From: Curvibacter sp. | GTDB lineage: Bacteria > Pseudomonadota > Gammaproteobacteria > Burkholderiales > Burkholderiaceae_C | DNA: 35,142 nucleotides | NCBI GenBank assembly: GCA_019233055.1 | Contig: JAFAMV010000079.1 | Coordinates: forward strand, 1 to 35,142 | Reading direction: 5' to 3' | Shown: positions 2,075 through 33,948 of the stretch, piece by piece | How the letters are laid out: the number at the start of each line of letters is the position of its first letter | Position numbering within the stretch: position 1 is the first letter of the stretch | Translations under genes and position numbers: made by a program | Notes under the pieces: generated by a model | Seen by the model: only the letters and a program-made list of their open reading frames with translations | What the model was told of the DNA's origin: nothing | The model's database searches: none

Positions 2075-2887
2075 TCAGTTCAGCCCGAGCACGTCGAACA
2101 TGTCGAACAGGCCCTGGGACTGGCCGGCCAGGAAGCGCACCGCACGCAGGCTCCCCTGCACATAGGTCGCCCGGCTGGACGACTTGTGGGTGATCTCGAT
2201 GCGCTCGCCGATGCCGGCGAACAGCACCGTGTGGTCGCCGACGATGTCGCCCCCGCGCACCGTCGCAAAGCCGATGCTCGAAGGATCACGCTCACCGGTG
2301 ACCCCCTCGCGGGCGTAGACCGCACAGTCCTTGAGGTCGCGGCCCAGGGCCTGGGCCACCACCTCGCCCATCTTCAGCGCGGTGCCCGAAGGGGCGTCGA
2401 CCTTGTGGCGGTGATGGGCTTCGATGATCTCGATGTCGTAGCCGGTGGCCAACGCCCGGGCCGCCATGTCGAGCAATTTGAGGGTGACATTGACGCCGAC
2501 ACTCATGTTGGGCGCCATGACGATGGCGATGTCGCGCGCCGCTGCGGCGATCTCGGCTTTCTGGGCGTCGCTGAAACCGGTGGTGCCGATGACCGCCTTG
2601 ACCCCCAGCTCCCGGCAGACCCGCAGATGCGCCAGAGTCCCTTCGGGCCGGGTGAAGTCGATCAGGACCTCGGCCGGCGACAGGCCCTGGCGCAGGTCGG
2701 CGGTGATGGCCACACCGCTGGCATGGCCCAGAAAACCCGTGGCGTCACTGCCGAGGGCCGGACTGGTGGCGACATCCAGGGCGCCGGCGATGCGGCAATC
2801 GTCGGTGGTCCGGATGGACTCCAGCAACATGCGACCCATGCGGCCCGATGCGCCTGCCACGGCGATTCTGTGCAAACTGGCACTCAT
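2075..2887 (-). CDS. dapB: 4-hydroxy-tetrahydrodipicolinate reductase
   Basis: NAD(P)H-dependent reduction of hydroxy-tetrahydrodipicolinate in the diaminopimelate/lysine pathway, supplying peptidoglycan and lysine; cytoplasmic. The 270-residue length is normal. The N-terminal Rossmann fingerprint is [12 protein letters not shown]. The catalytic and substrate-binding block reads [20 protein letters not shown], with the His pair, Lys and the PSGTA loop intact. The C-terminal [20 protein letters not shown] is also typical. It sits 54 bp after bamE and 17 bp before exbB in one transcription direction. Confidence 0.97.
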
Positions 2888-2941
2888 CTTCTGTTCATCC
2901 TGTGGTTCGGATCGGCGCCCGGTTGGCGCCCGATCGGTGAC

Positions 2942-3493
2942 TCAACGTGCTGCGGGCTCAAGAGGCGGGTAGGACGCCGACGCCGCCGAGACCGGGGCCG
3001 CACTGCCGCTGTCGCCCGCAGGGGCCGGCACCGGGTATTTGGACAGCTGCGCTTCGCTGGCCTCCAGTTCCGGCACCTTGTGGGAACGGGTGCGCGCATC
3101 GAGCTGCGCCACGAATTCGGCCTCGCTGGGCATCTCGTCGCCGTCGAAACGCTCCAGCGCATCACCCTTGAAATAGACGGTCAGGCGTCGTGCCTGTTCG
3201 GGCACGCCCTGGCGCCGCAAGGTGAAGACGTAGTCCCAGCGATCGGCATGGAACACGCTGACCACCAGCGGCGACCCCAGCACCTCCTTGACCTGCTGAC
3301 GGCTCATGCCGACCTGCAGCGCCTCGACCTGCTCCTTCGACACGAAATTGCCCTGGACCACCTCGATCCTGTAGGGGGTCACGGCATTGGCCAGGCGCTT
3401 GCCGGCCCCATCGAACGAGCTGCAGGCGGCAAGGCCGGCGACCAGCGCCATCAACAGGCTCAGCCGGGCAACACGGATGGGATAGGCAGACAT
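2942..3493 (-). CDS. bamE: Outer-membrane assembly lipoprotein BamE (SmpA/OmlA family)
   Basis: A 183-residue lipoprotein of the Bam beta-barrel assembly complex, anchored at the inner face of the outer membrane. I start at 3493 (MSAYPIRVARLSLLMALVAG), because this gives a signal peptide with a lipobox LAAC and Cys at residue 24; the open frame upstream overlaps fur. The SmpA/OmlA core is visible as YRIEVVQGNFVSKEQVEALQ, GMSRQQVKEVLGSPL and the FHADRWDYVFTL strand. The Ala/Pro/Ser-rich C-terminal tail (about 30 residues) exceeds the E. coli protein and may be disordered. It is divergent from fur, an arrangement I recall from Burkholderiales. Confidence 0.93.
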   Translation of the reverse strand: MSAYPIRVARLSLLMALVAGLAACSSFDGAGKRLANAVTPYRIEVVQGNFVSKEQVEALQVGMSRQQVKEVLGSPLVVSVFHADRWDYVFTLRRQGVPEQARRLTVYFKGDALERFDGDEMPSEAEFVAQLDARTRSHKVPELEASEAQLSKYPVPAPAGDSGSAAPVSAASASYPPLEPAAR

Positions 3494-3578: not shown

Positions 3579-4001
3579 ATGGCGAATATCGAGGAACTGA
3601 AAAACACCGGGCTGAAAGCCACCCTGCCGCGGCTGAAGATCCTGGAGCTCTTTCAGAAGGGCCGCCAGCGTCATATGACGGCCGAAGACGTCTTCCGGGT
3701 GCTGCTCCAGGAACAGTCGGACATCGGCCTGGCCACCGTCTACCGGGTGCTGACCCAGTTCGAGCAGGCCGGCATCCTGAGCCGCAGCCATTTCGAAAGC
3801 GGCAAGGCCGTCTACGAACTCAACGAGGGCCAGCACCACGATCACCTGGTCTGCACCAGTTGCGGCAAGGTCGAAGAGTTCTACGACGCCGAAATCGAAC
3901 GCCGCCAGCAGATGGTGGCCAAGGCCAAGAACTGGCTGCTGCAGGAGCACGCCATGTCGCTCTACGGCCTCTGCGCCAACTGCGTGCAGACCGCCCGCTG
4001 A
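3579..4001 (+). CDS. fur: Ferric uptake regulator Fur
   Basis: Iron-responsive transcriptional repressor, 140 residues, the usual length. The N-terminal winged helix contains [16 protein letters not shown] and the recognition region [20 protein letters not shown]. The dimerisation and metal-binding part has [16 protein letters not shown] with the conserved His cluster and CxxC, and a second CANC pair near the C-terminus (structural zinc). It is divergent from bamE and convergent with hprK (28-bp gap). I call it Fur rather than Zur or PerR from the very close match to betaproteobacterial Fur proteins. Confidence 0.96.
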
Positions 4002-4011
4002 CCACCCCGCC

Positions 4012-4029
4012 AGCCGCCAGGCTGCGGCT
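4012..4029. terminator. Possible bidirectional hairpin between fur and hprK
   Basis: AGCCGC (4012-4017) and GCGGCT (4024-4029) form a six-bp stem with the loop CAGGCT in the 28-bp gap between the convergent fur and hprK stops. There is no T-run on either side, so intrinsic termination is doubtful. Confidence 0.25.
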
Positions 4030-4980
4030 TCAGAGGTCGTGTTCCATGGCGCGGCGGTGCCGCTCGACGAATTCCTGGTAGGTATCGATGCCGCGCAACT
4101 GCAGGATGGTGTTGCGCACGGCCGCCTCGACCAGCACCGCGATGTTGCGCCCGGCCACGACCTGGATCACCACCTTGCGCACCGGCACGCCCAGCACGTC
4201 CTGGGTCAGGGGCTCGTAGGGCAGGCGCTCGTAGTCGCGCTCCATGGTCTCCTTGCGCACCAGATGGACGATGAGCTTCAGCCGCATGCGGCGACGCACC
4301 GCCGTCTCGCCGAAGATGGCGCGGATGTCGAGCAGGCCGATGCCCCGCACCTCGAGCAGGTTCTGCAGCAGCTCCGGACAACGCCCTTCGATGGTGGCCT
4401 GGTTGATGCGGAAGAGATCGACCGCATCGTCGGCCACCAGGCCATTGCCACGGGAGATCAACTCCAGCCCGAGCTCGCTCTTGCCCAGGCCCGACTCGCC
4501 GGTGATCATCACGCCGAGGCCCAGGATGTCCATGAACACGCCGTGCATCGAGGTGCGATCGGCGAAATGCTTGGACAGGTAGGCGCGCAGCACATCGATG
4601 ACGAAGGCTGAGGATTCGACCGTCGAGAACATCGGGATCTGGGCGCGCTCGCACATCGACAGCAGGGCGTCGGGGGCCAACTGCCCGTCGGCCAGGATCA
4701 GCACCGGCGGCTCGAGCGTCACGATGCGGGAGATGCGGCGCGCACAATCCTCGGCGGTGGCATTGACCAGGTAGGCGATCTCGCGCTCACCGAGGATCTG
4801 GACCCGATAGGGGTGGATGTAATTGAGGTAGCCGACCAGATCGGCGCCCGAGCGGGCCGCACGCACCACCACCTCGTCAAAACGGCGCTCCGAGGCCCCG
4901 AGTCCGGCGACCCACTCCCACTTCAGGATGGAGCGGAACTCTTCGAACAGGGCGTCGGCGCTGACCGCGGTGGGCTTCAC
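4030..4980 (-). CDS. hprK: HPr kinase/phosphorylase
   Basis: Bifunctional enzyme that phosphorylates and dephosphorylates a seryl residue of HPr. In Proteobacteria it belongs to the regulatory nitrogen-PTS rather than sugar uptake. The P-loop is GESGLGKS, preceded by the conserved His in [11 protein letters not shown] and followed by [11 protein letters not shown]. The [16 protein letters not shown] block is the family signature. I choose the GTG at 4980 (protein begins [16 protein letters not shown], 316 residues) over the ATG at 5034. The longer form would overlap ptsN by 32 bp, its extra 18 residues do not resemble the family, and relatives begin MKPT-. Upstream of either start the ribosome-binding site is poor. 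Co-oriented with ptsN and hpf. Confidence 0.94.
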
Positions 4981-5002
4981 GAGAGGAAACGCAGCGGGAA
5001 GA

Positions 5003-5470
5003 TCAAGCGGCCTGGGTCGACTGCCAGGTGGCAATCATCTGGTGCAGGCCGCCGGCGTCGGTGCAGGCCTTGATGCGCTCCCGGAGGGGCGCATCACTCA
5101 GCAGCTCGGCGATTTCGGAGAGGATTTCAAGGTGCTTCTGCGTCGCGGCCTCAGGCACCAGGAGAAAGATCAGCAAACCGACCGGCTGCTCATCGGGCGC
5201 ATCGAATCCGATCGGATGGGCCAGCTGGAACACCGCCGCCATCGGCGACTTCAGGCCCTTGATGCGGCCGTGCGGAATGGCCACGCCATGCCCCAGACCG
5301 GTGGAGCCCAGCCGTTCACGGGCGAACAGGCTGTCGGTGATCAAGGCGCGGCTCAGACCATGCTGACTTTCGAACAGCAGGCCGGCTTCTTCGAACGCAC
5401 GCTTTTTGCTCGTGGCATCGACGCTCACGAGCACCTGGGCAGGAGGGAGGATGGACGCAAGACGGTTCAT
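5003..5470 (-). CDS. ptsN: Nitrogen-PTS EIIA component PtsN
   Basis: A 155-residue EIIA-Ntr-type phosphocarrier that takes phosphate from NPr and modulates potassium, nitrogen and stress functions by protein contacts. The phosphorylated His lies in [16 protein letters not shown]. The neighbouring [10 protein letters not shown] and the [20 protein letters not shown] segment are typical of the family. It is 22 bp upstream of the chosen hprK start. The translation signal is weak and the candidate promoter is very close to the ATG (see separate entry). Confidence 0.95.
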
Positions 5471-5484
5471 GATTTGTAAGGGCG

Positions 5485-5514
5485 ATTATGCACCGGTCCC
5501 CAAGCTTCGTTGAA
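5485..5514 (-). promoter_or_regulatory. Candidate ptsN promoter
   Basis: On the minus strand TTCAAC (5514-5509), an 18-bp spacer and CATAAT (5490-5485) resemble a sigma-70 promoter. Transcription would begin near 5478, leaving only about 8 nt before the ptsN ATG at 5470. Being downstream of the hpf terminator, this would give ptsN-hprK their own transcript. Confidence 0.35.
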
Positions 5515-6182: not shown

Positions 6183-8423
6183 TCAACCCAGCGCGAACTG
6201 GCCCTTGCCGGCCGCCTTGGCCTGGTACATGGCCGCGTCGGCGCGTTTGAGCAGGCTCTGCGCCGTCAACCCCGCCGGCGCGTCCTGTGACGACACGGCC
6301 ACCCCGATGCTCGAGGACAGCACCACCTCGCGCCCGCCGATCAAGGCCGGCCGGCCCAGTTCGTGGATCAGCTTGCGGGCCACCTGTGCCGCCTGGAGCG
6401 CTGGATCCGACAACCCTTCCAGGATCACCGTGAACTCGTCTCCTGCCAGGCGGGCCACGCCGTCGGTCTCCCGGACGCTGTCCAGCAGGGTTCTGGCGAA
6501 ATGCCGCAGCACCGCGTCGCCGAAATCGTGCCCATGCTGGTCGTTGTATCCCTTGAACCCATCGAGGTCCAGGAACAGCAGGGCCAGGCCGACGTGCTGG
6601 CGGCGCGCCCGGGCGAGCGCCTCGCTCAACTGGCGCAGAAAGGCCCGGCGGTTGGGCAGCCCCGTCAGGGCGTCATGACTGGCCTCATGCTTGAGCTGTT
6701 GTTCGAGCAGGTACTGTTCGGTGATGTCCTGGGCGAGAACATAGAAACCATAGGGGGGCCCGTCCATCGCCGTGTCCGGGATCAAGGCGGTGTGCACCCG
6801 CAGCTCACCATCGAGGGTGCGCATGAGGCCCTCGAAGCTCACCGCCCGACCCTCCTGGACCCGCTGCACCTGGGGCTTCATGTCGTCAAAGGCCGCGGCG
6901 CCCACGAAGTCGGGCAGGCTGCGCCCGACGATGGCCTCGGGGGCCACGCCGAACCAGTGCTGATAGCTCAGGTTGTTGAACTGGTAGACCAGGTGTTCAT
7001 CGACATAGGCGACCAGGGCCGGCAGGTTGTCGGCCAGCAGACGCAGACGCGCCCGGCTGGCCACCAGTTCGCGCTCCCGCGCCTTGCGCCCGGTGATGTC
7101 GTGCAGGAAGGCATTCACCCGCAGGCGCCCGCCATGGCGGATCTCACTGAGCGACATCTCGACCGGGAACAGGCGTCCGTCACGGTGCTGGGCCAGCACC
7201 TCGAAGCGCTGCTCGAAACGCTGTCCTGGCCCCACGGACAGGTAGGCCCGGAAAGCGTTCCCGTGCGCCAGCTGCTGTCCCGAGGGCACGATCAGATCCG
7301 ACAGGCTGCGGCCGATGGCCTCCCATGCCGTCCACCCGAACGCCTGCCCCGCAGCCTGGTTCCAGCCGGTGACCCAGCATCGCTCATCGACCTCGACAAA
7401 GGCATCGGTCGCATTGGCCAGAGTGGCCCGGAAATGCTCCTTCTCCTGCTCCAGGGCCTGCTGGGCGGCTTCGCGGCGGAGCACTTCCTGGCTCAGCTCC
7501 GCCGTGCGGGCCTCGACCCGGTGTTCGAGTTCGAGCTGCAGCACCGCCAGGGCCTGCTCGGACGCCTTGCGCACCGAGATGTCCGTGGCCATGAGCAGGA
7601 ACCCGCCATCCAGCCCTTCGAGCCGGCAAAGGCCGAGCAGACACCAGACCAGTCGCCCGTCGGGCCGGCTGAAAAGCACCTCATGCTCGCCCGCTGGCGC
7701 CGCCGCCCCGTCACGCAGGGCGGCCATCGAAGAGGCCAGGGCCTGGGCCTCGCCTCCGAACAAGACGGTGGCCAAGGCAGTTCCCGCCAGATCCTCGGGA
7801 GACCGGCCCAGCATCAAGCCCAACTGCGCATTGGCCCGCAACCAGAGTCCTTCGTCGGTCACCAGGCCCATGCCGATGGTGGCGTGGGCAAAGATCTGTC
7901 CGAACTGGGTTTCGGACAGGCTCGCCCTGCGGGCGGCCTCGATGCCCTGCAGATGCTGCTCGACCAGGGCCGCCAGGTCCTGCAGGTCCTGGCATTGCGC
8001 CGCATCGAAATGGTGAGGCTGGCGGTCCATCAGGCACAAGGTCCCCAGCGCGTGACCGCGGGTCGATCGCACCGGGCAACCGGCATAGAACACCAGCCCC
8101 GACTCGCCCCGCACCGCCGGGTTGTCGGAGAACCGCACATCCAGCCGGGCATCCTCGATCACGAAGACCGCCGGCTGCAGGATCGCATGGGCACAGAAGG
8201 ACAGCGCCCGCGGCATCCGGGCACGCGGCAGGCCGTGGCTGGAGCAGGTCTGCTGCTCGTCGTGCAGCACGAGGTTGACCATGGCCACCGGCACGTCGAA
8301 ATGCCGGGCAGCCAGCCGGGTGATGCGGTCCAGTTCGGGCGAGGACCGCAATTCCAGGCCCCCCAACGCTTCCAACGCCCGCAGGCGGGCGGTTTCGTCA
8401 GCGGGCAGGCCGGGAAATTCCAT
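6183..8423 (-). CDS. Soluble GAF-PAS-PAS-PAS-GGDEF diguanylate cyclase
   Basis: Predicted to make cyclic di-GMP from two GTP; cytoplasmic, as no signal peptide or membrane helix is seen. It has 746 residues from the ATG at 8423 (protein MEFPGLPADETARL), chosen for an upstream AAGGAGAGG; an in-frame ATG at 8465 would add 14 poor residues. Order: GAF about 20-160 (PVAMVNLVLHDEQQT, YAGCPVRSTRGHALGTLCL), PAS about 170-290, a coiled linker, PAS about 325-445, PAS about 460-575, GGDEF about 585-745. The active site reads AGDEF (near 660), a tolerated variant of GGDEF. An RETD product-inhibition site precedes it at the proper five-residue distance. No EAL or HD-GYP domain. The multiple sensor domains suggest input from redox state or small ligands, which I cannot specify. 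Confidence 0.9.
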   Translation of the reverse strand: MEFPGLPADETARLRALEALGGLELRSSPELDRITRLAARHFDVPVAMVNLVLHDEQQTCSSHGLPRARMPRALSFCAHAILQPAVFVIEDARLDVRFSDNPAVRGESGLVFYAGCPVRSTRGHALGTLCLMDRQPHHFDAAQCQDLQDLAALVEQHLQGIEAARRASLSETQFGQIFAHATIGMGLVTDEGLWLRANAQLGLMLGRSPEDLAGTALATVLFGGEAQALASSMAALRDGAAAPAGEHEVLFSRPDGRLVWCLLGLCRLEGLDGGFLLMATDISVRKASEQALAVLQLELEHRVEARTAELSQEVLRREAAQQALEQEKEHFRATLANATDAFVEVDERCWVTGWNQAAGQAFGWTAWEAIGRSLSDLIVPSGQQLAHGNAFRAYLSVGPGQRFEQRFEVLAQHRDGRLFPVEMSLSEIRHGGRLRVNAFLHDITGRKARERELVASRARLRLLADNLPALVAYVDEHLVYQFNNLSYQHWFGVAPEAIVGRSLPDFVGAAAFDDMKPQVQRVQEGRAVSFEGLMRTLDGELRVHTALIPDTAMDGPPYGFYVLAQDITEQYLLEQQLKHEASHDALTGLPNRRAFLRQLSEALARARRQHVGLALLFLDLDGFKGYNDQHGHDFGDAVLRHFARTLLDSVRETDGVARLAGDEFTVILEGLSDPALQAAQVARKLIHELGRPALIGGREVVLSSSIGVAVSSQDAPAGLTAQSLLKRADAAMYQAKAAGKGQFALG

Positions 8424-13980: not shown

Positions 13981-15186
13981 TCAGAACCGGCCCGCCACGA
14001 GTGCACAGGCCACCACCAAGGCCCAGGGCGGCACCCGCCAGAACACGGCCGCCACAAAGGCCAGCAAGGCCATCACGAAATCCGGCGCGGCCTGGATGCC
14101 ACCGGTCCAGACGGGCTGGTAGAAGGCGGCCAGCAACAGGCCGACCACGGCGGTATTGACCCCCTGCAGCGCCCGCTGCAATACCGCCAGGTGGCGCACC
14201 CGGGCCCACAGGGGCAACACCCCCAACACCAGCAGAAAGCCGGGCAGGAAGATGGCCAGCACCGCCAGACCCGCCATCAACCAGCCCTGCAGCCCGGGCA
14301 CCGCAGCCGCCCCCAGAAAGGCGGCGAAGGTGAACAGCGGACCGGGCACGGCCTGTGCCGCCCCATAGCCGGCCAGGAACAGGTTGCGGTCGACCCAGCC
14401 CCGAGGAACCACCTCCGCCTGCAGCACGGGCAACACCACGTGGCCGCCGCCGAAGACCAGGGCACCCGAGCGGTAGAACACATCGAACATCTGCACCCCC
14501 AGGCCCGAAGACTGGCGGGCCCACAGCGGCAGCAGCAGCAACAGGGCCGCGAACACCAGCAGCGCGACCAACGCGCCGCGCGCGCCCAGCGGCCGCTCTG
14601 GAGCGACCACCTCGGCGGCACCTGCCGGCGGCGCCAGAAAGAGACAGCCCGCCAGCCCGGCCAGCCCCAGCACCGCCAACTGCCCGGCCGGCCCGGGCAC
14701 CAGGAGTGCGGCGGCGGCGGCCAGGGCCGCCAGGGTGGCACGAGGACGGTCGGGGCACAGCGTGCGCCCCATGCCCCACAGGGCCTGGGCCACCACGGCG
14801 ACCGCGCAGACCTTGAGGCCATGCAGCCAGGCCGGCTGGGCCGCAGGCGACAGGCCCGCCAGGAACTGGGCGAACAACACCAGCGCCAGCACCGAAGGCA
14901 GGGTAAACCCTAGCCAGGCCAGCAGGGCGCCCGGCAGGCCCCGGCGCAGCAGACCCAGACCGATGCCGACCTGGCTGCTCGCCGGGCCCGGCAGGAACTG
15001 GCACATGGCCACCAGGTCGGCATAGGCCGCGTCATCCAGCCAGCGCCGACGCTGCACGAACTCCTGCCGGAAATAGCCCAGGTGGGCCACCGGCCCGCCA
15101 AAACTGGTGCAGCCCAGGCGCAGGAAGATCCCGAAGACCTCGAGCAGGGACGATCGGTCGTGGAGCGGCGTGGCGGGATGGGTCAT
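13981..15186 (-). CDS. chrA: Chromate transporter family protein, two-domain form
   Basis: Inner-membrane transporter of the CHR superfamily; characterised long-form members export chromate by proton motive force. It has 401 residues from the ATG at 15186 (MTHPATPLHDRSSLLEVFGI), preferred to 15270 because the N-terminus then aligns with the family. Two homologous CHR halves are visible. The first begins LGCTSFGGPVAHLGYFRQEF, with the CQFLPGPASSQVGIGLG signature. The second has SGALVFGGGHVVLPVLQAEV and GAAQAVPGPLFTFAAFLGA. About ten to twelve hydrophobic helices are present. No chrB regulator is seen. Actual chromate export is an inference from family membership. Confidence 0.88.
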   Translation of the reverse strand: MTHPATPLHDRSSLLEVFGIFLRLGCTSFGGPVAHLGYFRQEFVQRRRWLDDAAYADLVAMCQFLPGPASSQVGIGLGLLRRGLPGALLAWLGFTLPSVLALVLFAQFLAGLSPAAQPAWLHGLKVCAVAVVAQALWGMGRTLCPDRPRATLAALAAAAALLVPGPAGQLAVLGLAGLAGCLFLAPPAGAAEVVAPERPLGARGALVALLVFAALLLLLPLWARQSSGLGVQMFDVFYRSGALVFGGGHVVLPVLQAEVVPRGWVDRNLFLAGYGAAQAVPGPLFTFAAFLGAAAVPGLQGWLMAGLAVLAIFLPGFLLVLGVLPLWARVRHLAVLQRALQGVNTAVVGLLLAAFYQPVWTGGIQAAPDFVMALLAFVAAVFWRVPPWALVVACALVAGRF

Positions 15187-15367
15187 GGCAGCAGCAATGG
15201 GTTGACGGACAAGGTCGGGATGGCAGACAGTGCGTCGAGCAGGATGGGGGCGATACGGTGCCCAAACCAACTATAGTTGCATTCAGCACATGAACATCGC
15301 CGCCCCCCGGCGCAGGGCCCTGGCCGACAGCCCGGTTTGTCTGCCACCTCACTGAAAGCTGGACACG
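15187..15367. promoter_or_regulatory. Divergent region between chrA and the binding-protein operon, with a palindrome
   Basis: This 181-bp gap separates divergent genes. It contains the perfect 12-bp palindrome CAACTATAGTTG at 15268-15279, unusually AT-rich for this genome. It lies 82 bp upstream of the chrA start and 89 bp upstream of the binding-protein start. TATAGT within it could be a -10 on either strand. It is a reasonable operator or promoter candidate, but the regulator is unknown. Confidence 0.4.
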
Positions 15368-16165
15368 ATGACCCTTGGCCTGCGACATTTTCTGCGGCAT
15401 GCCCTGGCAAGGCGCGCCCTGGTGCTGTTCGGTCTGACCCTGGCAGGCCTGCATGCGGTCGCGGCCGAACCCGAACTGACGATGCTGGTGGGCAGCCTCA
15501 ATGCCCCGAAGATGTTCCTGTCCGAGGAGGGCAGGCCCACCGGCTATTTCACCGAACTGGCCGACGCGCTGGCTCGGCGTGCCGGGTATTCGCCGCGCCT
15601 TGTGGCGGTCCCCTGGCCCCGGGCCGTGCTGATGGCCGAACAGGGCGATGGCGTGGTGGCCAGCCTGTCGCGCACGCCGGAGCGCGAACGGCTCTTTCTG
15701 TTCTCGGACCCCATCCTCGAAGAGAAGATCCTGATCGTCACCCTGAAGCGCTCCAACCTCACCGCCGCCAGCCTGGCCGACCTCCAGGGCCGCAAGGTCG
15801 GGCTGAGCCGGGGCTCCAAATATGGCGCCCGCTTCGTCGAAGAGCTGCCCCTGGTCGAGACCCAGGAGGACGACAGCACCGTCGCACGCCTGAAGAAACT
15901 GTCGCTGGGCCGCATCGACGCAGCGATCGTCTATGGCGGCATGGCTTCGGTGGTCTACAACGCCCAGTTGGCCGGCGTCGACATGGCCGACCTGACGGTG
16001 CAGGGCACGCCGCTGGCGCTCGACAAGAACTACTTCGGCATCGCCAAGACACGGCCCGATGCTGCAGCGGTGCTCAGGAACCTGAATGCGGCCAACGCGG
16101 CGATGAAGGCCGACGGCGGCATCAGCGCCATCCTGCACCGCTGGGGAGAGATCGACAGGCCCTGA
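15368..16165 (+). CDS. Periplasmic substrate-binding protein, family 3 (first of two)
   Basis: A 265-residue SBP_bac_3-type protein. A signal peptide is clear (about residues 1-33, ending HAVAAEPEL). The mature part has the two-lobe pattern: NAPKMFLSEEGRPTGYFTEL, then VPWPRAVLMAEQGDG and SRTPERERLFLFSDPI in lobe 1. The crossing segment is KVGLSRGSKYGARFVEELP, and the hinge return is RIDAAIVYGGMASVV. The PWxRAxxMAE and SRTxERE motifs place it in the subfamily often found without ABC permeases. It shares these motifs with the binding protein at 17760, so the two are paralogues flanking a sensor kinase. It is 19 bp upstream of that kinase. Ligand not deducible; amino-acid-like compounds are the family norm. 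Confidence 0.87.
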   Translation: MTLGLRHFLRHALARRALVLFGLTLAGLHAVAAEPELTMLVGSLNAPKMFLSEEGRPTGYFTELADALARRAGYSPRLVAVPWPRAVLMAEQGDGVVASLSRTPERERLFLFSDPILEEKILIVTLKRSNLTAASLADLQGRKVGLSRGSKYGARFVEELPLVETQEDDSTVARLKKLSLGRIDAAIVYGGMASVVYNAQLAGVDMADLTVQGTPLALDKNYFGIAKTRPDAAAVLRNLNAANAAMKADGGISAILHRWGEIDRP

Positions 16166-16184
16166 ACACCGCCGACCGCGCCCC

Positions 16185-17747
16185 ATGCCGCCCTCGCCTG
16201 CCGCACCCACGTCGCCGCTCGGCTTTCTGCACGGAGGGCGACATTCGATCCGGTTCCGGCTGATGTCGCTGTTCACCGTGGCCATCACCTCGGTCCTGCT
16301 GGCCTCCGGCGTCTATTCCTACCTGAGGGCCAGGGATGACCTGGGCACCCAGACCCGGCTGGCCCAGCAGCGGCTGAAGCAGAGAATGCAGATCAATCTG
16401 CAGTTGCCGATGTGGAACCTGGACATGGCCACGCTGGGCGAAATCGTCAAGAGCGAACTGGGCCCCTCGGTGCGCGGCATCACCGTGCGGGACGCCAACC
16501 AGAAGACGGTGCTGAGGGCCGGTTCGGGAGGCGATGCGGACGTGCTGCCGCTGCGCTTTCCCCTGCTCTACCAGCAGACCGGCGCCGACTTCCCTCTCGG
16601 TGAGGTCGAGGTCGCCTGGTCCGACGCGCAGGCGCGCACGGCACTGGCGCAGCAGTTCGAACACCGGGTGTACGACATCCTGTTTGCCAACCTCGCCATC
16701 CTGCTGGCCCTCTGGCTGGGCCTGAGGGGCCTGGTCTTCGACCGGCTCCAGGGTCTGAACGCCGCCTTGCTGAAGCTGGCCACCCGACGTGAATCCCGCG
16801 AGACCAGCCTGGACCTGCCGGCCCAGCGCCATGACGAGTTCGACGCCATCGTCAACAGCATCAATGCGGTCATGGACCGGCTCAACCAGGACCTCCGCGC
16901 CCGTGAGGCGGCCGAGGGCGAGGCGCGCGAAGCGCTGACCAACCTGTCCAACGCCCAGGCCCTGCTGGTCCAGACCGAGAAGCTGGCCTCGCTGGGCGCC
17001 CTGGTCGCCGGCGTGGCGCATGAATTGAACACCCCGATCGGCAACGCCGTGCTGATGGCCAGTTCCCTGCAGGACAGCTTTCGCGACTTCGAGGCCAAGG
17101 TCGGGCTGAACGGCCTGAGGCGCGCCGACCTCGATGCGCTCTGCCGCGACGCCGCCGACGGCACCCGGCTGCTGCTGCGCAACCTCGAGTCGGCAGCCCA
17201 ATTGATCGGCAGCTTCAAACAGGTCGCGGTGGACCGCACCAGCTCCAACCGACGCCACTTCGAACTCGGCCCCATGGTCGACGAAGTGCTGTCGACGTTG
17301 CGCTTCAAACTCAAATCCGTCGAGCTGCAGGTCCAGATCGAGGCTGGCCTGAGCCTGGACAGCTATCCGGGCGCGGTCGGCCAGGTGCTGGTCAACCTGG
17401 TTGAAAACGCCCTCTTCCATGGCATCCAGGAGGCCGCCGCGGGCCTGCTCCGCATCGAAGGCAAGTCCGTGTCGCCAGACTGGCTGCTGCTCAGCGTGCG
17501 GGACAACGGAAAGGGCATCGCCCTCGAGCACCTGCACCGGGTCTTCGACCCATTCTTCACCACGCGCCTGGGCACGGGCGGCAGCGGCCTGGGCCTGAGC
17601 ATCACCCACAACATCGTGGTGCAGTTGCTGGGCGGCTCAATCACCGTCCACAACCACCCCGAAGGGGGCGCGCAATTCGATCTGCTGCTGCCGCGGGTGG
17701 CCCCCCTGTCCGACGCCGCCCCCGGTGCCCTGCCCCCGCAGCCCTGA
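16185..17747 (+). CDS. Membrane sensor histidine kinase between two binding-protein genes
   Basis: Predicted 520-residue sensor kinase. Two membrane helices (about 27-46 and 163-184) bracket a periplasmic domain of about 115 residues, followed by a HAMP-like linker and a coiled coil ending LVQTEKLASLGALVAGVAHE. The phospho-accepting His is H279 in AHELNTPIGNAVLM. The ATPase has an N-box VNLVENALFHG (N408), G1 DNGKGI, F-box FDPFFTT and G2 GGSGLGLSI, all intact. No receiver domain is fused and no response regulator gene is adjacent. The start is uncertain: no ribosome-binding site is seen and a later ATG at residue 27 is possible. Spacing of 19 bp and 12 bp to the flanking genes implies an operon; the binding proteins are plausible periplasmic co-sensors. 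Confidence 0.9.
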   Translation: MPPSPAAPTSPLGFLHGGRHSIRFRLMSLFTVAITSVLLASGVYSYLRARDDLGTQTRLAQQRLKQRMQINLQLPMWNLDMATLGEIVKSELGPSVRGITVRDANQKTVLRAGSGGDADVLPLRFPLLYQQTGADFPLGEVEVAWSDAQARTALAQQFEHRVYDILFANLAILLALWLGLRGLVFDRLQGLNAALLKLATRRESRETSLDLPAQRHDEFDAIVNSINAVMDRLNQDLRAREAAEGEAREALTNLSNAQALLVQTEKLASLGALVAGVAHELNTPIGNAVLMASSLQDSFRDFEAKVGLNGLRRADLDALCRDAADGTRLLLRNLESAAQLIGSFKQVAVDRTSSNRRHFELGPMVDEVLSTLRFKLKSVELQVQIEAGLSLDSYPGAVGQVLVNLVENALFHGIQEAAAGLLRIEGKSVSPDWLLLSVRDNGKGIALEHLHRVFDPFFTTRLGTGGSGLGLSITHNIVVQLLGGSITVHNHPEGGAQFDLLLPRVAPLSDAAPGALPPQP

Positions 17748-17759
17748 ACCACCCTGCCG

Positions 17760-18557
17760 ATGCCCCGATCCACCCACTTCCTCTTTGCCCTGGGGGCCCG
17801 GCTCGCCGGGCTGTGCCTGCTGACGATCGGACTGCTGACCGCGCGGCCGCTGCAGGCCGCAGAAACCGGCGCCGAGCTTCAATGGCTGGGCGGCGACCTG
17901 CCCCCCTTCGTCTGGCGCGAGCAAGGCCGGGCGCAGGGCTATGCGGTGGAACTTCTGAACGCGCTCGACCGAAAGATGGGCCGCCACAGCACCCTGAGCT
18001 TCTACCCCTGGGCCCGGGCCGTGCAGATGGCCGAGGCCGGGCCGGCCTATGGCATCTTCCCCCTCACCCGCAGCGCCGAACGCGAAGGCCGTTTCAACTG
18101 GCTCATCCCGCTGGGCCAGGTGCGGCACGTGTTCCTGGCCCGCACCGACCCGTCGGCAAAGGCCCCGACGGAGCGGACACGCCCCCTCGAAGAACTGCGG
18201 GAGGCACAGGTCGGCCTGCTGCGCGGATCCTCGCCCATCATCACCATGCTCCGGAGCAAGGGATTCACGCACATCTACGAGGCCACCGACTACCAGGAAC
18301 TGCTGCGCCTGCTGTCGCAGCACATGATCGACTATGTGTATGGCGGCGAGCCCATGTTGCGTGCCAGCCTGGCCAGCAGCCCCTACTCCGCCGGCGACTT
18401 CCAGTTCGTCGCCGCCCTGGGCGACGCCACGGTCTACATGGGCGCTTCGGCGGCCGTCTCGGCGGCCGAGGCGCAAAAGTGGCAGCAGGCCTACGAGGCC
18501 CTCAGCAAGGAAGGCGAAGTGGCGAGATTGAAAGAGAAATACCGGCTGCAGCCCTGA
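17760..18557 (+). CDS. Periplasmic substrate-binding protein, family 3 (second of two)
   Basis: A 265-residue secreted protein with a signal peptide ending near residue 34 (RPLQAAETG). Lobe 1 has PPFVWREQGRAQGYAVELLN, YPWARAVQMAEAGPAYG and PLTRSAEREGRFNWLIPLG. The crossing segment is QVGLLRGSSPIITML, with the return MIDYVYGGEPM. It shares the PWxRAxxMAE and SxERE motifs with the protein encoded at 15368 but is otherwise well diverged, so it probably binds a different ligand or the same one with different affinity. It starts 12 bp after the sensor kinase. No permease or ATPase gene follows. Confidence 0.86.
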   Translation: MPRSTHFLFALGARLAGLCLLTIGLLTARPLQAAETGAELQWLGGDLPPFVWREQGRAQGYAVELLNALDRKMGRHSTLSFYPWARAVQMAEAGPAYGIFPLTRSAEREGRFNWLIPLGQVRHVFLARTDPSAKAPTERTRPLEELREAQVGLLRGSSPIITMLRSKGFTHIYEATDYQELLRLLSQHMIDYVYGGEPMLRASLASSPYSAGDFQFVAALGDATVYMGASAAVSAAEAQKWQQAYEALSKEGEVARLKEKYRLQP

Positions 18558-18894: not shown

Positions 18895-19335
18895 TCATTT
18901 GAACGCCAGCACCACCACGCCCGCGCCCACCATCGCGATGCCCAGCCACTCGCGCAGCGAGGGCCGCTCGCCCAGGAAGAGCACGGCAAACAGCACGACC
19001 AACAGAAGGCTGAGCTTGTCGACCGGCGCCACCTTGGAGGCCTCGCCGATCTTGAGGGCCCTGAAATAGCAGGTCCAGCTGGCACCGGTGGCCAGACCCG
19101 ACAGGACCAGGAACAGCCAGGTGCGCCCGGACAGGGTCAACGGGTTCATCCAGCGGCCCGTGGCCTGCACGAACACGCCCAGCACCCCCAGGATCACCAC
19201 GGTGCGGATCAGGGTGGCCATGTCGCTGTTCACCCCGGCCAGCCCGATCTTGGCGAAGATGGCCGTCAGGGCGGCGAAGGCGGCCGACAGCAGGGCCCAG
19301 AGCAGCCAGCCGGACTGGGCGGCGGAATCGGTCAT
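18895..19335 (-). CDS. Half-size EamA/DMT-family membrane protein
   Basis: A 146-residue inner-membrane protein consisting of a single EamA repeat with five predicted helices: about 8-30, 38-58, 70-92, 103-122 and 128-145. Family features include WTCYFRALKIGEASKVAPVD and LLVVLFAVLFLGERPSLREW, which match one half of the usual ten-helix drug/metabolite transporters. Such half-size members are expected to work as dimers. I use the ATG at 19335, since AAGGA lies 8-9 nt upstream; the ATG at 19344 would overlap that site. Divergent from the DUF2835 gene. Substrate unknown. Confidence 0.85.
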   Translation of the reverse strand: MTDSAAQSGWLLWALLSAAFAALTAIFAKIGLAGVNSDMATLIRTVVILGVLGVFVQATGRWMNPLTLSGRTWLFLVLSGLATGASWTCYFRALKIGEASKVAPVDKLSLLLVVLFAVLFLGERPSLREWLGIAMVGAGVVVLAFK

Positions 19336-19492
19336 GGTGAACATCCTTTCTGCGATGCCGCGAGAGCGGGCCAGCGGGACCCGTCTCGCGCGTCAGTCGC
19401 CGATTGTCTGCCCAATCCGGCCTGCCAGGACCCCGCGTGCGTTGCGGCACAATGAAACCCAAGCCCGCGCCCCTGCGAAAGAACAGTCCCCC

Positions 19493-26140: not shown

Positions 26141-31888
<5,748 letters not shown>

Positions 31889-31996
31889 GGTGGTCGGGGT
31901 TCTGGGTGGAGGCCAAGCATTCTAGGAGCCTGTCCGCCACGGCCGCATGACAGCCCGCAATGCCCCCGCAACGCCCTCCGGCGTGGCGCCGGCCGC

Positions 31997-33664
31997 TCAG
32001 CCGAGCCGGTCGATGTCGACCTGCGCGGTCTCGGGCACGAACAGCAGGCCCAGCACCAGGGTCGCGGCCGCCACCAGCACCGGGTACCAGAGCCCATGGA
32101 AGATGTTGCCGTTCTGCGCCACCATGGCGAAGGCCACGGTGGGCATCAGGCCGCCGAACCAGCCGTTGCCGATGTGGTAGGGCATGCTCATCGAGGTGTA
32201 GCGGATGCGGGTCGGGAACAACTCGACCAGGGCCGCCGCCATGGGCCCGTAGACCATGGCCACGAACACCACCAGCAGGGTCAGGATCAGCACCACTTCG
32301 AGGACATTGATGCGGGCCGGGTCGGCGGCGGCCGGAAAGCCGGCCTCGCGCAGGGCCGCCGAGACCTCCTGGCGGAACGCGGCCAGGGCCCGCTGGCTGG
32401 CCTCGTCGAATCGCCTGTGCTGCAGGTGCAGCTCGGGCGCGGGCACCGTGCGCGCACCGATGCGCACCTGGGCCGGCTGCCCTGCGGGGCCGGCTTCGTT
32501 GTCGTAGCTGACCGCGTTCTGCGCCAGAAAGCGCTTGGCGATGTCGCAGGAGCGGGTGAAGTCGATCTCCCGGGCCAGGGGATTGCCCTGGTAGCCGCAG
32601 CCGTCCTCCGAGGCCACGACCACGACGCGGGTCGCGGCCTGGGCCTCGGCCAGGGCCGGGTTGGCCGCCTGGGTCAGGGCCTCGAAGAGCGGGAAATAGC
32701 TCAGCGCTGCCAGCAGCAGGCCCGCCAGGATGACCGGCCGGCGACCGACCCGGTCGGACAGGTGTCCGAACAGCACGAAGGCCGGGGTGGCCAGCAGCAG
32801 CGCGATGGCCATGAAGATGTTGGCCATGGTGCCGTCTACCTTGAGCACGCTGGTGAGGAAGAAGAGCGCATAGAACTGCCCCGTGTACCAGACCACGGCC
32901 TGCCCGGCCACCAGGCCGAACAGGGCCACCAGCACCAGGCGCAGGTTGCGCCACTGACCGAAGGACTCGGACAGCGGCGCCTTGGACACCTTGCCCTCGG
33001 CCTTGATGCGCTGGAAGGCCGGCGACTCGTCCAGGGTCAGGCGGATGAACACCGACACCCCGAACAGCAGGATGGAGACCAGGAACGGCACGCGCCAGCC
33101 CCAGTCGGCGAAATCCTCGGCCTCGAGCGAGCCGCGCACCACCAGGATCACCACCAGGGCCAGGAACAGGCCCAGGGTGGCGGTGGTCTGGATCCAGCCG
33201 GTGTAGGCGCCGCGCCGGCCCGCCGGCGCATGCTCGGCCACATAGGTGGCCGCCCCCCCGTATTCACCGCCCAGGGCCAGGCCCTGCAGCATGCGCAGCA
33301 GCACCAGGATCACCGGCGCGGCCAGCCCGATCGAGGCATACGACGGCAGGATGCCGACGATGAAGGTCGACAGGCCCATGATGAGGATGGTGACCAGGAA
33401 GGTGTACTTGCGCCCGATCATGTCGCCGAGCCGCCCGAAGACCAGGGCGCCGAAGGGGCGCACCACGAAGCCGGCGGCGAAGGCCAGCAACGCGAAGATG
33501 AAGGCCGCCGCCGGGTCCAGGCCCGAGAAGAACTGGCGCGCGATGTACTCGGCCAGCGCCCCGTAGAGGTAGAAGTCATACCACTCGAAGACGGTGCCCA
33601 GCGAGGAGGCGAAGATCACCTTCTTCTCTTCCGGCGTCATCGGCCTGGGACTGCTTGCTGCCAT
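31997..33664 (-). CDS. MHS-family MFS transporter with a large extra loop
   Basis: A 555-residue inner-membrane symporter of the major facilitator superfamily, metabolite:H+ symporter group (normally about 430-450 residues). Start ATG at 33664 (MAASSPRPMTPEEKKVIFAS), with GAGGAG upstream. Signatures: SSLGTVFEWYDFYLYGALAE at helix 1, the loop GRLGDMIGRKYTF, GLALGGEYGGAATYVAE in helix 4, and GHLSDRVGRRP between helices 8 and 9. Between helix 9 and helix 10 (about residues 337-452) there is an added hydrophilic segment of about 115 residues with two Cys (356 and 373), probably periplasmic. The helical core then resumes (NVLEVVLILTLLVVFVAMVY, ELFPTRIRYTSMSMPYHIGN). The substrate is probably a carboxylate or osmolyte, by family; not deducible here. 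Divergent from DUF485-actP. Confidence 0.9.
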   Translation of the reverse strand: MAASSPRPMTPEEKKVIFASSLGTVFEWYDFYLYGALAEYIARQFFSGLDPAAAFIFALLAFAAGFVVRPFGALVFGRLGDMIGRKYTFLVTILIMGLSTFIVGILPSYASIGLAAPVILVLLRMLQGLALGGEYGGAATYVAEHAPAGRRGAYTGWIQTTATLGLFLALVVILVVRGSLEAEDFADWGWRVPFLVSILLFGVSVFIRLTLDESPAFQRIKAEGKVSKAPLSESFGQWRNLRLVLVALFGLVAGQAVVWYTGQFYALFFLTSVLKVDGTMANIFMAIALLLATPAFVLFGHLSDRVGRRPVILAGLLLAALSYFPLFEALTQAANPALAEAQAATRVVVVASEDGCGYQGNPLAREIDFTRSCDIAKRFLAQNAVSYDNEAGPAGQPAQVRIGARTVPAPELHLQHRRFDEASQRALAAFRQEVSAALREAGFPAAADPARINVLEVVLILTLLVVFVAMVYGPMAAALVELFPTRIRYTSMSMPYHIGNGWFGGLMPTVAFAMVAQNGNIFHGLWYPVLVAAATLVLGLLFVPETAQVDIDRLG

Positions 33665-33948
33665 GGACTCGTCTCCTCGTGCCGGGTCGTATCGATGCCT
33701 GCGGCGACCCTTGGTCTGCGCGACTATCCGGGCAAAGTCTGACCCTCGCCTGACAGGTCCGCTGCGCCGGCGCGGCCGCTCGCCAGGTACACGGCATCTG
33801 AGATGCACATCAGGGAAACCCCCGATCAAATGGGGCGTCCTGCCCGGGCCTGCGTAAGGAGTTGGTCAGCACCGCTTTCCACAATGAATCAGCAGGCGAG
33901 GTGTTTCGCTCCTGGCCAGCCATCCATCCCATTCTTGAGGAGACAACC
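33665..33948. other. Divergent intergenic region, MHS transporter / DUF485-actP
   Basis: The 284-bp gap contains regulatory sequence for both directions. CCCC (33823-33826) and GGGG (33835-33838) flank a short loop, a weak hairpin. AGGAG at 33938-33942 is the ribosome-binding site of the DUF485 gene. No confident promoter or operator was found and no coding frame is convincing. Confidence 0.4.

Follow-up and report, generated by a model that had tools for sequence, protein, structure and literature searches.

Organization of the locus

We analyzed a 35,142-nucleotide stretch of DNA from Curvibacter sp. (contig JAFAMV010000079.1 of assembly GCA_019233055.1, positions 1 to 35,142, forward strand), hereafter called the window, and concentrated on three closely spaced genes that encode a membrane histidine kinase and, on either side of it, a solute-binding protein (SBP), here named SBP1 and SBP2. 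The unit comprises the following features.

15368 to 16165, plus strand: SBP1, 265 amino acids, SBP_bac_3 family, with an N-terminal hydrophobic segment
16185 to 17747, plus strand: membrane histidine kinase, 520 amino acids, consisting of a first transmembrane segment, a periplasmic module, a second transmembrane segment, a HAMP-like linker, HisKA and HATPase_c
16326 to 16667, plus strand: periplasmic stretch of the kinase (approximately residues 48 to 161), belonging to a module family with weak CHASE5, CHASE8 and LapD_MoxY_N matches
17760 to 18557, plus strand: SBP2, 265 amino acids, SBP_bac_3 family, with an N-terminal hydrophobic segment

The coordinates confirmed the tandem order described in the first-pass annotation of this DNA, with spacings of 19 and 12 bp, and the GC content at third codon positions (GC3) was 0.86 for SBP1, 0.89 for the kinase and 0.87 for SBP2. 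The unit is bounded by a divergent chromate transporter gene (ChrA-like, 13981 to 15270) and a convergent EamA gene (18895 to 19344). Custom profiles run against all six frames of the window revealed no further SBP, no PAAT-type permease and no DUF3369-type receiver. Likewise, a Pfam search of 25 window open reading frames (ORFs), a subset of all ORFs, returned no Response_reg match and no SBP-dependent transporter, the sole ABC_tran match being a UvrA-like protein. The receiver (REC) profile was narrow, in that it recognizes the DUF3369 type and missed others, including LytTR-type regulators, and our regulator counts are therefore lower bounds. The first-pass annotation had noted that no permease, ATPase or response regulator gene lies beside the unit, and none was found in the profile scan or among the 25 ORFs, although no ATPase-specific profile was used. 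With the same limit, we rejected a local PAAT-type ATP-binding cassette (ABC) importer operon for amino acids, as the six-frame permease profile had no match and the adjoining genes are ChrA-like and EamA-like. A promoter and terminator scan of the locus was uninformative.

The kinase and its periplasmic module

The kinase matched HATPase_c with an E value of 1.3e-22 and HisKA with an E value of 6.8e-5 (23.3 bits, under the curated cut-off of 26.9), and Pfam detected no receiver domain in it. The phospho-acceptor H279, N408, D440 and the glycine-box residues are conserved over 20 aligned kinases. A periplasmic domain of about 115 residues had been predicted for this protein, and it does lie between two hydrophobic segments, at approximately residues 21 to 47 and 161 to 188. 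Membership of the LuxQ family was rejected (59.4 bits against a curated cut-off of 1200), as was membership of the VirA family (88.6 bits against a cut-off of 647 for the VirA-like model).

For module searches we used kinase residues 17 to 252 as the probe. The closest full-length relative of the kinase is found in genome G289 (40% identity over residues 17 to 509), followed by those of G002 and G003, which are of the same genus (37%). An alignment of the module family contains 76 members and one invariant tryptophan. At an E value of ≤0.1, CHASE5 (PF17149) was matched by 32 of the 76 members (best value, 4.6e-6), CHASE8 by 17 and LapD_MoxY_N by 12. The module of the window kinase itself matched none of these three families; its only Pfam matches were to HAMP (0.0059) and to a spurious family. 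When the module family was searched against PDB profiles, hits with E values of <1e-4 were mostly confined to the HAMP part and the second membrane segment; a match to 4u64/4u65, which we take to be a LapD-like periplasmic domain, covered module columns 30 to 108 at an E value of 0.0099 and is a lead only.

SBP genes adjoin module genes in family genomes

A module profile built from four kinase N termini and applied to 299 family genomes at an E value of ≤1e-15 yielded 49 proteins in 40 genomes. Gene calling relied on GC3 together with profile hits and placed some genes in the wrong frame. We defined an immediate neighbor as a directly adjacent called gene, no more than 300 bp away, that matched the SBP profile with an E value of <1e-5 and encoded <400 amino acids (<420 amino acids in the positional and broader-profile counts). 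The SBP profile was seeded with the proteins of the window and of loci L106 and L107; the window and L107 SBPs scored 3e-28 or better against profiles lacking their own locus.

An SBP gene immediately adjoins the module gene for 21 of the 49 proteins, or for 18 of 46 when the three seed loci are left out; a broader SBP profile that included three transporter SBPs gave 22 of 49. By comparison, none of 58 controls had an immediate SBP neighbor (kinases without the module, 0/40, mostly from the window's genome and with two genes possibly counted twice; GGDEF genes, 0/11; other kinases within module loci, 0/7). The difference between 18/46 and 0/58 gives a Fisher P value of 4e-8, without correction for relatedness. 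Kinases in the genome contigs loci also lacked SBP neighbors (0/101). SBP genes filled 23 of 95 slots at a gene distance of ±1 and 3 of 292 slots at ±2 to ±5, and they lay upstream of, downstream of or divergent from the module gene. The gene-neighborhood comparison called for in the first-pass annotation thus shows that the linkage recurs in relatives, at 21/49 against 0/58 in the family sample.

We also examined some of the module-adjoining SBP genes outside the window with Pfam. Several scored above the SBP_bac_3 cut-off of 26.4 bits, and others fell under it (L160, 24.1; L352, 25.4; the second gene of L349, 20.4; gene 4736 to 5506 of L261, 21.0); the SBP-type gene of L353 gave a weak SBP_bac_5 match only.

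The controls and the positional peak at ±1 argue against a chance neighborhood in which the kinase would sense something else through its own domain. Such an arrangement would have precedents in AgtS and AruS, two kinases that, according to the passages of PMC11113362 available to us, did not bind the SBPs encoded next to them, and the majority of module proteins lack an SBP neighbor (28/49 with the first profile and 27/49 with the broader one). We give this explanation very little credence.

Other genes were seen beside module genes. In L158, L162, L164, L172, L177, L178, L193 and L195, the module kinases share one type of neighbor gene, presumably DNA topoisomerase III judging from the start of its sequence, and no SBP neighbor was found there. 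The module kinases of L173, L174, L185 and L194 adjoin a gene for a eukaryotic-type carbonic anhydrase. Selected flanking genes of module proteins that lack an SBP neighbor encoded four carbonic anhydrases, one glutathione-transferase-like protein, one alpha/beta hydrolase and one esterase-like protein; two further flanking genes had no Pfam match, one of them, as an exception, beside L327, which has an SBP on its other side. At L170:4249-8803, on contig C228 of the window's genome, the gene for a 1027-amino-acid GGDEF protein is overlapped at its start by a 493-amino-acid ORF that matched the SBP profile.

The module-SBP pair is kept while the output changes

Among the module proteins linked to an SBP are simple kinases, hybrid kinases, GGDEF-EAL proteins and a chemoreceptor. 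Four of the hybrid kinases were scanned, and each carries two receiver stretches and an Hpt domain; the two GGDEF-EAL proteins scanned were those of L159 and L171. Trees of the modules and of the SBPs have five clades in common. Within one of these clades, L159 and L171 have a GGDEF-EAL output and L181, L182 and L190 a kinase, and in two pairs that span this swap, the modules are 55 to 56% identical and the SBPs 65 to 69% identical. The module-SBP pair is therefore kept while the output changes. Over 21 loci, module and SBP distances were correlated (Mantel r = 0.94; P = 5e-5). This correlation was gone among 185 deep pairs (r = 0.07), and the agreement of distances consequently holds at the level of clades only.

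These observations bear on the alternative that the SBPs supply an unlinked ABC permease and are merely co-encoded and co-expressed with the kinase. Service to transporters is the main role of SBPs, as stated in the available passages of PMC11113362, and in the window's genome SBP genes lie near BPD_transp_1 permease genes on contigs C205 and C200. The persistence of the module-SBP linkage through changes of output speaks against this explanation, however, as does the distribution of the PAAT permease profile, which among the 49 module loci was confined to L168, where its match lies at a distance of 13 kb from the module gene, and L171, where it lies beside a second SBP gene and on the other strand. 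We consider it improbable.

A class-level sample of 321 genomes contained 28 module loci outside the window's genome. Among the selected flanking genes scanned, an SBP-type neighbor was found at 8 of the 28 loci, five by the custom SBP profiles, two as Phosphonate-bd and one as ABC_sub_bind. The five found by profile comprised three SBP_bac_3 proteins above the cut-off, one just below it and one with a weak SBP_bac_5 match only. Two class-level modules stand alone, without an output domain: L350:4261-5783 and L351:5743-7324 encode nothing beyond the module and a HAMP-type end (identified as HAMP by Pfam in L350), each beside an SBP_bac_3 gene. At L355:5617-7826, the gene for a GGDEF protein with the module is directly followed by a Phosphonate-bd SBP gene, and at L336:53-2211, such a GGDEF protein gene overlaps a Phosphonate-bd SBP gene by 4 bp.

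As a tentative generalization, which we rate as somewhat less probable than even, the module may be a general SBP-docking domain that is interchangeable across histidine kinases, hybrid kinases, GGDEF-EAL enzymes and chemoreceptors and that accepts SBPs from three or more Pfam families; two SBPs in some lineages, including that of the window, would then give one receptor two ligands.

SBP1, SBP2 and units with two SBPs

SBP1 and SBP2 matched SBP_bac_3 with E values of 4.2e-19 and 8.1e-11, respectively (Pfam). The motif PWxRAxxMAE reported as common to both proteins is present, as PWPRAVLMAE in one and PWARAVQMAE in the other, and the described divergence of the rest is reflected in an overall identity of 34% across 212 amino acids (E = 3e-15). 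The hydrophobic segment of SBP1 spans residues 17 to 35 and contains no cysteine, and that of SBP2 spans residues 5 to 28; from N-terminal hydrophobicity alone, both proteins are predicted to be exported.

In an alignment with AncQR, Arg106 of SBP1 (in TPER) aligns with the AncQR arginine, and a tyrosine occupies the AncQR lobe-2 aspartate position. Arg108 of SBP2 is invariant across its six relatives, and the corresponding motif in SBP2 and these relatives has no aspartate. Both proteins retain the lobe-1 arginine. We take the lobe-1 arginine and the lobe-2 aspartate to be ligand-binding residues in classical SBP_bac_3 binders of alpha-amino acids. Our guess from these residues would be that the ligand is not an ordinary alpha-amino acid.

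A search of 250 family genomes with SBP1 (E < 1e-22) found one relative besides itself, at 31% identity. At its locus, L312:4425-7882, a chemoreceptor gene is convergent with an SBP gene and a second SBP gene is present; the module profile did not match this chemoreceptor. SBP2 has six relatives at 41 to 46% identity (L301 to L306, in six genomes), each no more than two genes from a sensor kinase gene. They adjoin an Ada/AlkA-like gene, with domains Pfam-checked in L302 only, where the SBP2 relative accompanies a His_kinase (PF06580)/LytTR pair beside an Ada/AlkA gene.

These relatives raise the alternative that only SBP1 is a co-sensor and that SBP2 is a recruit from a different SBP family, one serving another sensor or role. 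Genome G289 also fits it, with an SBP-kinase pair that lacks a second SBP. There, a diverged SBP gene lies directly before the kinase gene and after a UvrA-like gene, with a major facilitator superfamily (MFS) gene nearby. This SBP, at L106, has no Pfam match and scored 1.7e-14 with a profile omitting it. The UvrA-like and MFS genes of G289 are 80% and 64% identical to the corresponding pair of the window, which occupies positions 26141 to 33829 (UvrA-like protein of 1915 amino acids, 26141 to 31888, and MFS transporter) and starts 7.6 kb downstream of the unit. Because G289 shares this neighborhood and has one SBP before the kinase, the SBP-kinase pair may be an older state than the SBP-kinase-SBP unit. 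Against a separate role for SBP2 stand its start only 12 bp after the kinase gene and the recurrence of two-SBP units elsewhere. On balance, we find this alternative unlikely, though less so than service to a permease.

The recurring two-SBP units differ in layout, and none has the window's order around a kinase. G002 and G003 have two tandem SBP genes divergent from the kinase gene; G370 has an SBP-chemoreceptor-SBP arrangement plus further SBP-like genes, with one flanking SBP gene under the Pfam cut-off; and G937 has the order SBP-SBP-kinase, with the second gene under the Pfam cut-off. As two-SBP units recur in these three other lineages, dual-ligand input to the kinase appears plausible. 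At L261:2561-8009, a module-bearing chemoreceptor gene is flanked by an SBP gene on either side (4736 to 5506 and 7125 to 8009), with a third SBP-like gene at 3938 to 4702 and a fourth on the other strand at 2561 to 3358.

Candidate output partners

In an order-level sample of 399 genomes, with 27 module matches and flanks of 1.5 kb, a REC gene lies beside the kinase gene in 9 of the 27 matches. Four of these nine regulators were examined at full length, and all were REC-DUF3369-HD proteins. The core of the window kinase is 54% identical to that of the L109 kinase, which adjoins a REC-DUF3369-GGDEF-EAL gene. In a tree of kinase cores, a 13-row group (82/90) contains both the window kinase, at the end of a long branch, and kinases partnered by REC-DUF3369-GGDEF-EAL proteins, so that the type of partner is no more than suggested. 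The output partner may thus be a REC-DUF3369 cyclic di-GMP (c-di-GMP) regulator encoded elsewhere. The window's genome contains two DUF3369 proteins, one REC-DUF3369-GGDEF-EAL and one REC-DUF3369-HD, each paired with kinase-core relatives; cross-signaling from the window kinase to these two regulators would be a guess.

A model for the unit and its standing

We propose, with a probability of about 0.62, that the window encodes a dedicated, transporter-free sensory unit in which the SBPs detect ligands in the periplasm and dock on the module of the kinase. SBP1, and probably SBP2, would be exported to the periplasm and bind small ligands; they would dock on the short periplasmic module in ligand-dependent conformations; and the helices of HAMP and HisKA would move in response, thereby altering kinase or phosphatase activity. 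The signal would pass to an output partner whose gene lies elsewhere, perhaps a REC-DUF3369 regulator carrying c-di-GMP domains. Judged by its sequence features, the unit would belong to the SBP-linked sensor kinases, as it joins a kinase with a membrane-bounded periplasmic domain and catalytic residues to an adjoining SBP, in a linkage that recurs beyond chance.

Several observations weigh against this proposal, in addition to AgtS and AruS, the many module proteins without an SBP neighbor and the lost correlation among deep pairs. The exact SBP-kinase-SBP order was found in none of the other loci examined, and in the order-level sample SBP neighbors were present at only 1 of the 27 matches, the G370 chemoreceptor. 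Five genome-contig proteins with a weak module match all lacked an SBP neighbor (0/5). The SBP2 relatives adjoin another type of kinase. An unpaired REC-DUF3369 regulator was rejected as the partner, since both DUF3369 proteins of the genome adjoin other kinases. AlphaFold, run with 20 sequences, gave a confidence score (pLDDT) mostly below 50 for the module, and this prediction was not used; no fold was obtained. The co-sensor role first suggested for the binding proteins therefore stands in part: the linkage, the matching module and SBP clades and the output swap favor it, and the lack of a repeated order and the order-level count do not.

Most bacterial receptors have no known signal, one cause being that some read it through a separate binding protein (PMC11113362, available passages). 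For many kinases, cyclases and chemoreceptors, a sensor module that tracks SBPs would indicate the ligand-binding partner, and units with two SBPs would offer a natural test of two-ligand logic within one receptor. Although the class of mechanism is known, the association of module and SBP has enough specificity to suggest many receptor-ligand pairs that could be tested.

What appears to be new is the transporter-free layout of two SBPs around a kinase and a single module family that keeps its SBP partners across outputs. Our literature search, which covered listings and passages, returned no description of such a layout or module-SBP association, which is not proof of absence. It gave no match for CHASE5 in a periplasmic context, and the sole match for two periplasmic binding proteins with a histidine kinase concerned, in the passage seen, the chemoreceptor Tlp3.

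Comparison with known systems

LuxP-LuxQ and ChvE-VirA are familiar couples of this kind. In the first, the soluble periplasmic protein LuxP serves the histidine kinase LuxQ as a co-sensor; LuxQ is of the hybrid type, and LuxP comes from another SBP family than SBP_bac_3. ChvE, a sugar-binding protein that modulates the kinase VirA, also belongs to another SBP family. The chemoreceptor Trg resembles the window's unit in being fed by two SBPs, both sugar-binding proteins, and differs in that it is not a kinase and its SBPs are of other families and belong to transport operons.

Further comparisons draw on the available passages of published reports. Control of kinases, chemoreceptors and c-di-GMP enzymes by SBPs is established (PMC11113362, PMC9602780), and 10 of 11 characterized SBP-kinase couples are encoded together (PMC11113362). 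The kinase genes of AgtS and AruS lie near orphan SBP genes, as at the window locus, but their SBPs are SBP_bac_8 proteins that were tested and showed no interaction, whereas those of the window are SBP_bac_3 proteins (PMC11113362). In NspS-MbaA of Vibrio cholerae, a periplasmic binding protein likewise controls a membrane signaling protein, and two competing ligands tune one receptor through one SBP; the likeness drawn here is one of described function, and MbaA has a GGDEF/EAL output and a single SBP (PMC8967002). In BctC-BctE of Bordetella, the SBP in its ligand-loaded form docks on a histidine kinase's periplasmic domain, as we propose here, but BctC is a TctC-family protein and part of a tripartite transporter, whereas the window SBPs are SBP_bac_3 proteins without adjoining transporter genes (PMC9602780). 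Finally, an SBP_bac_3 domain feeds the signaling protein RmcA of Pseudomonas aeruginosa; there the domain is built into the receptor, whereas at the window locus the SBPs are separate proteins (PMC8846402).

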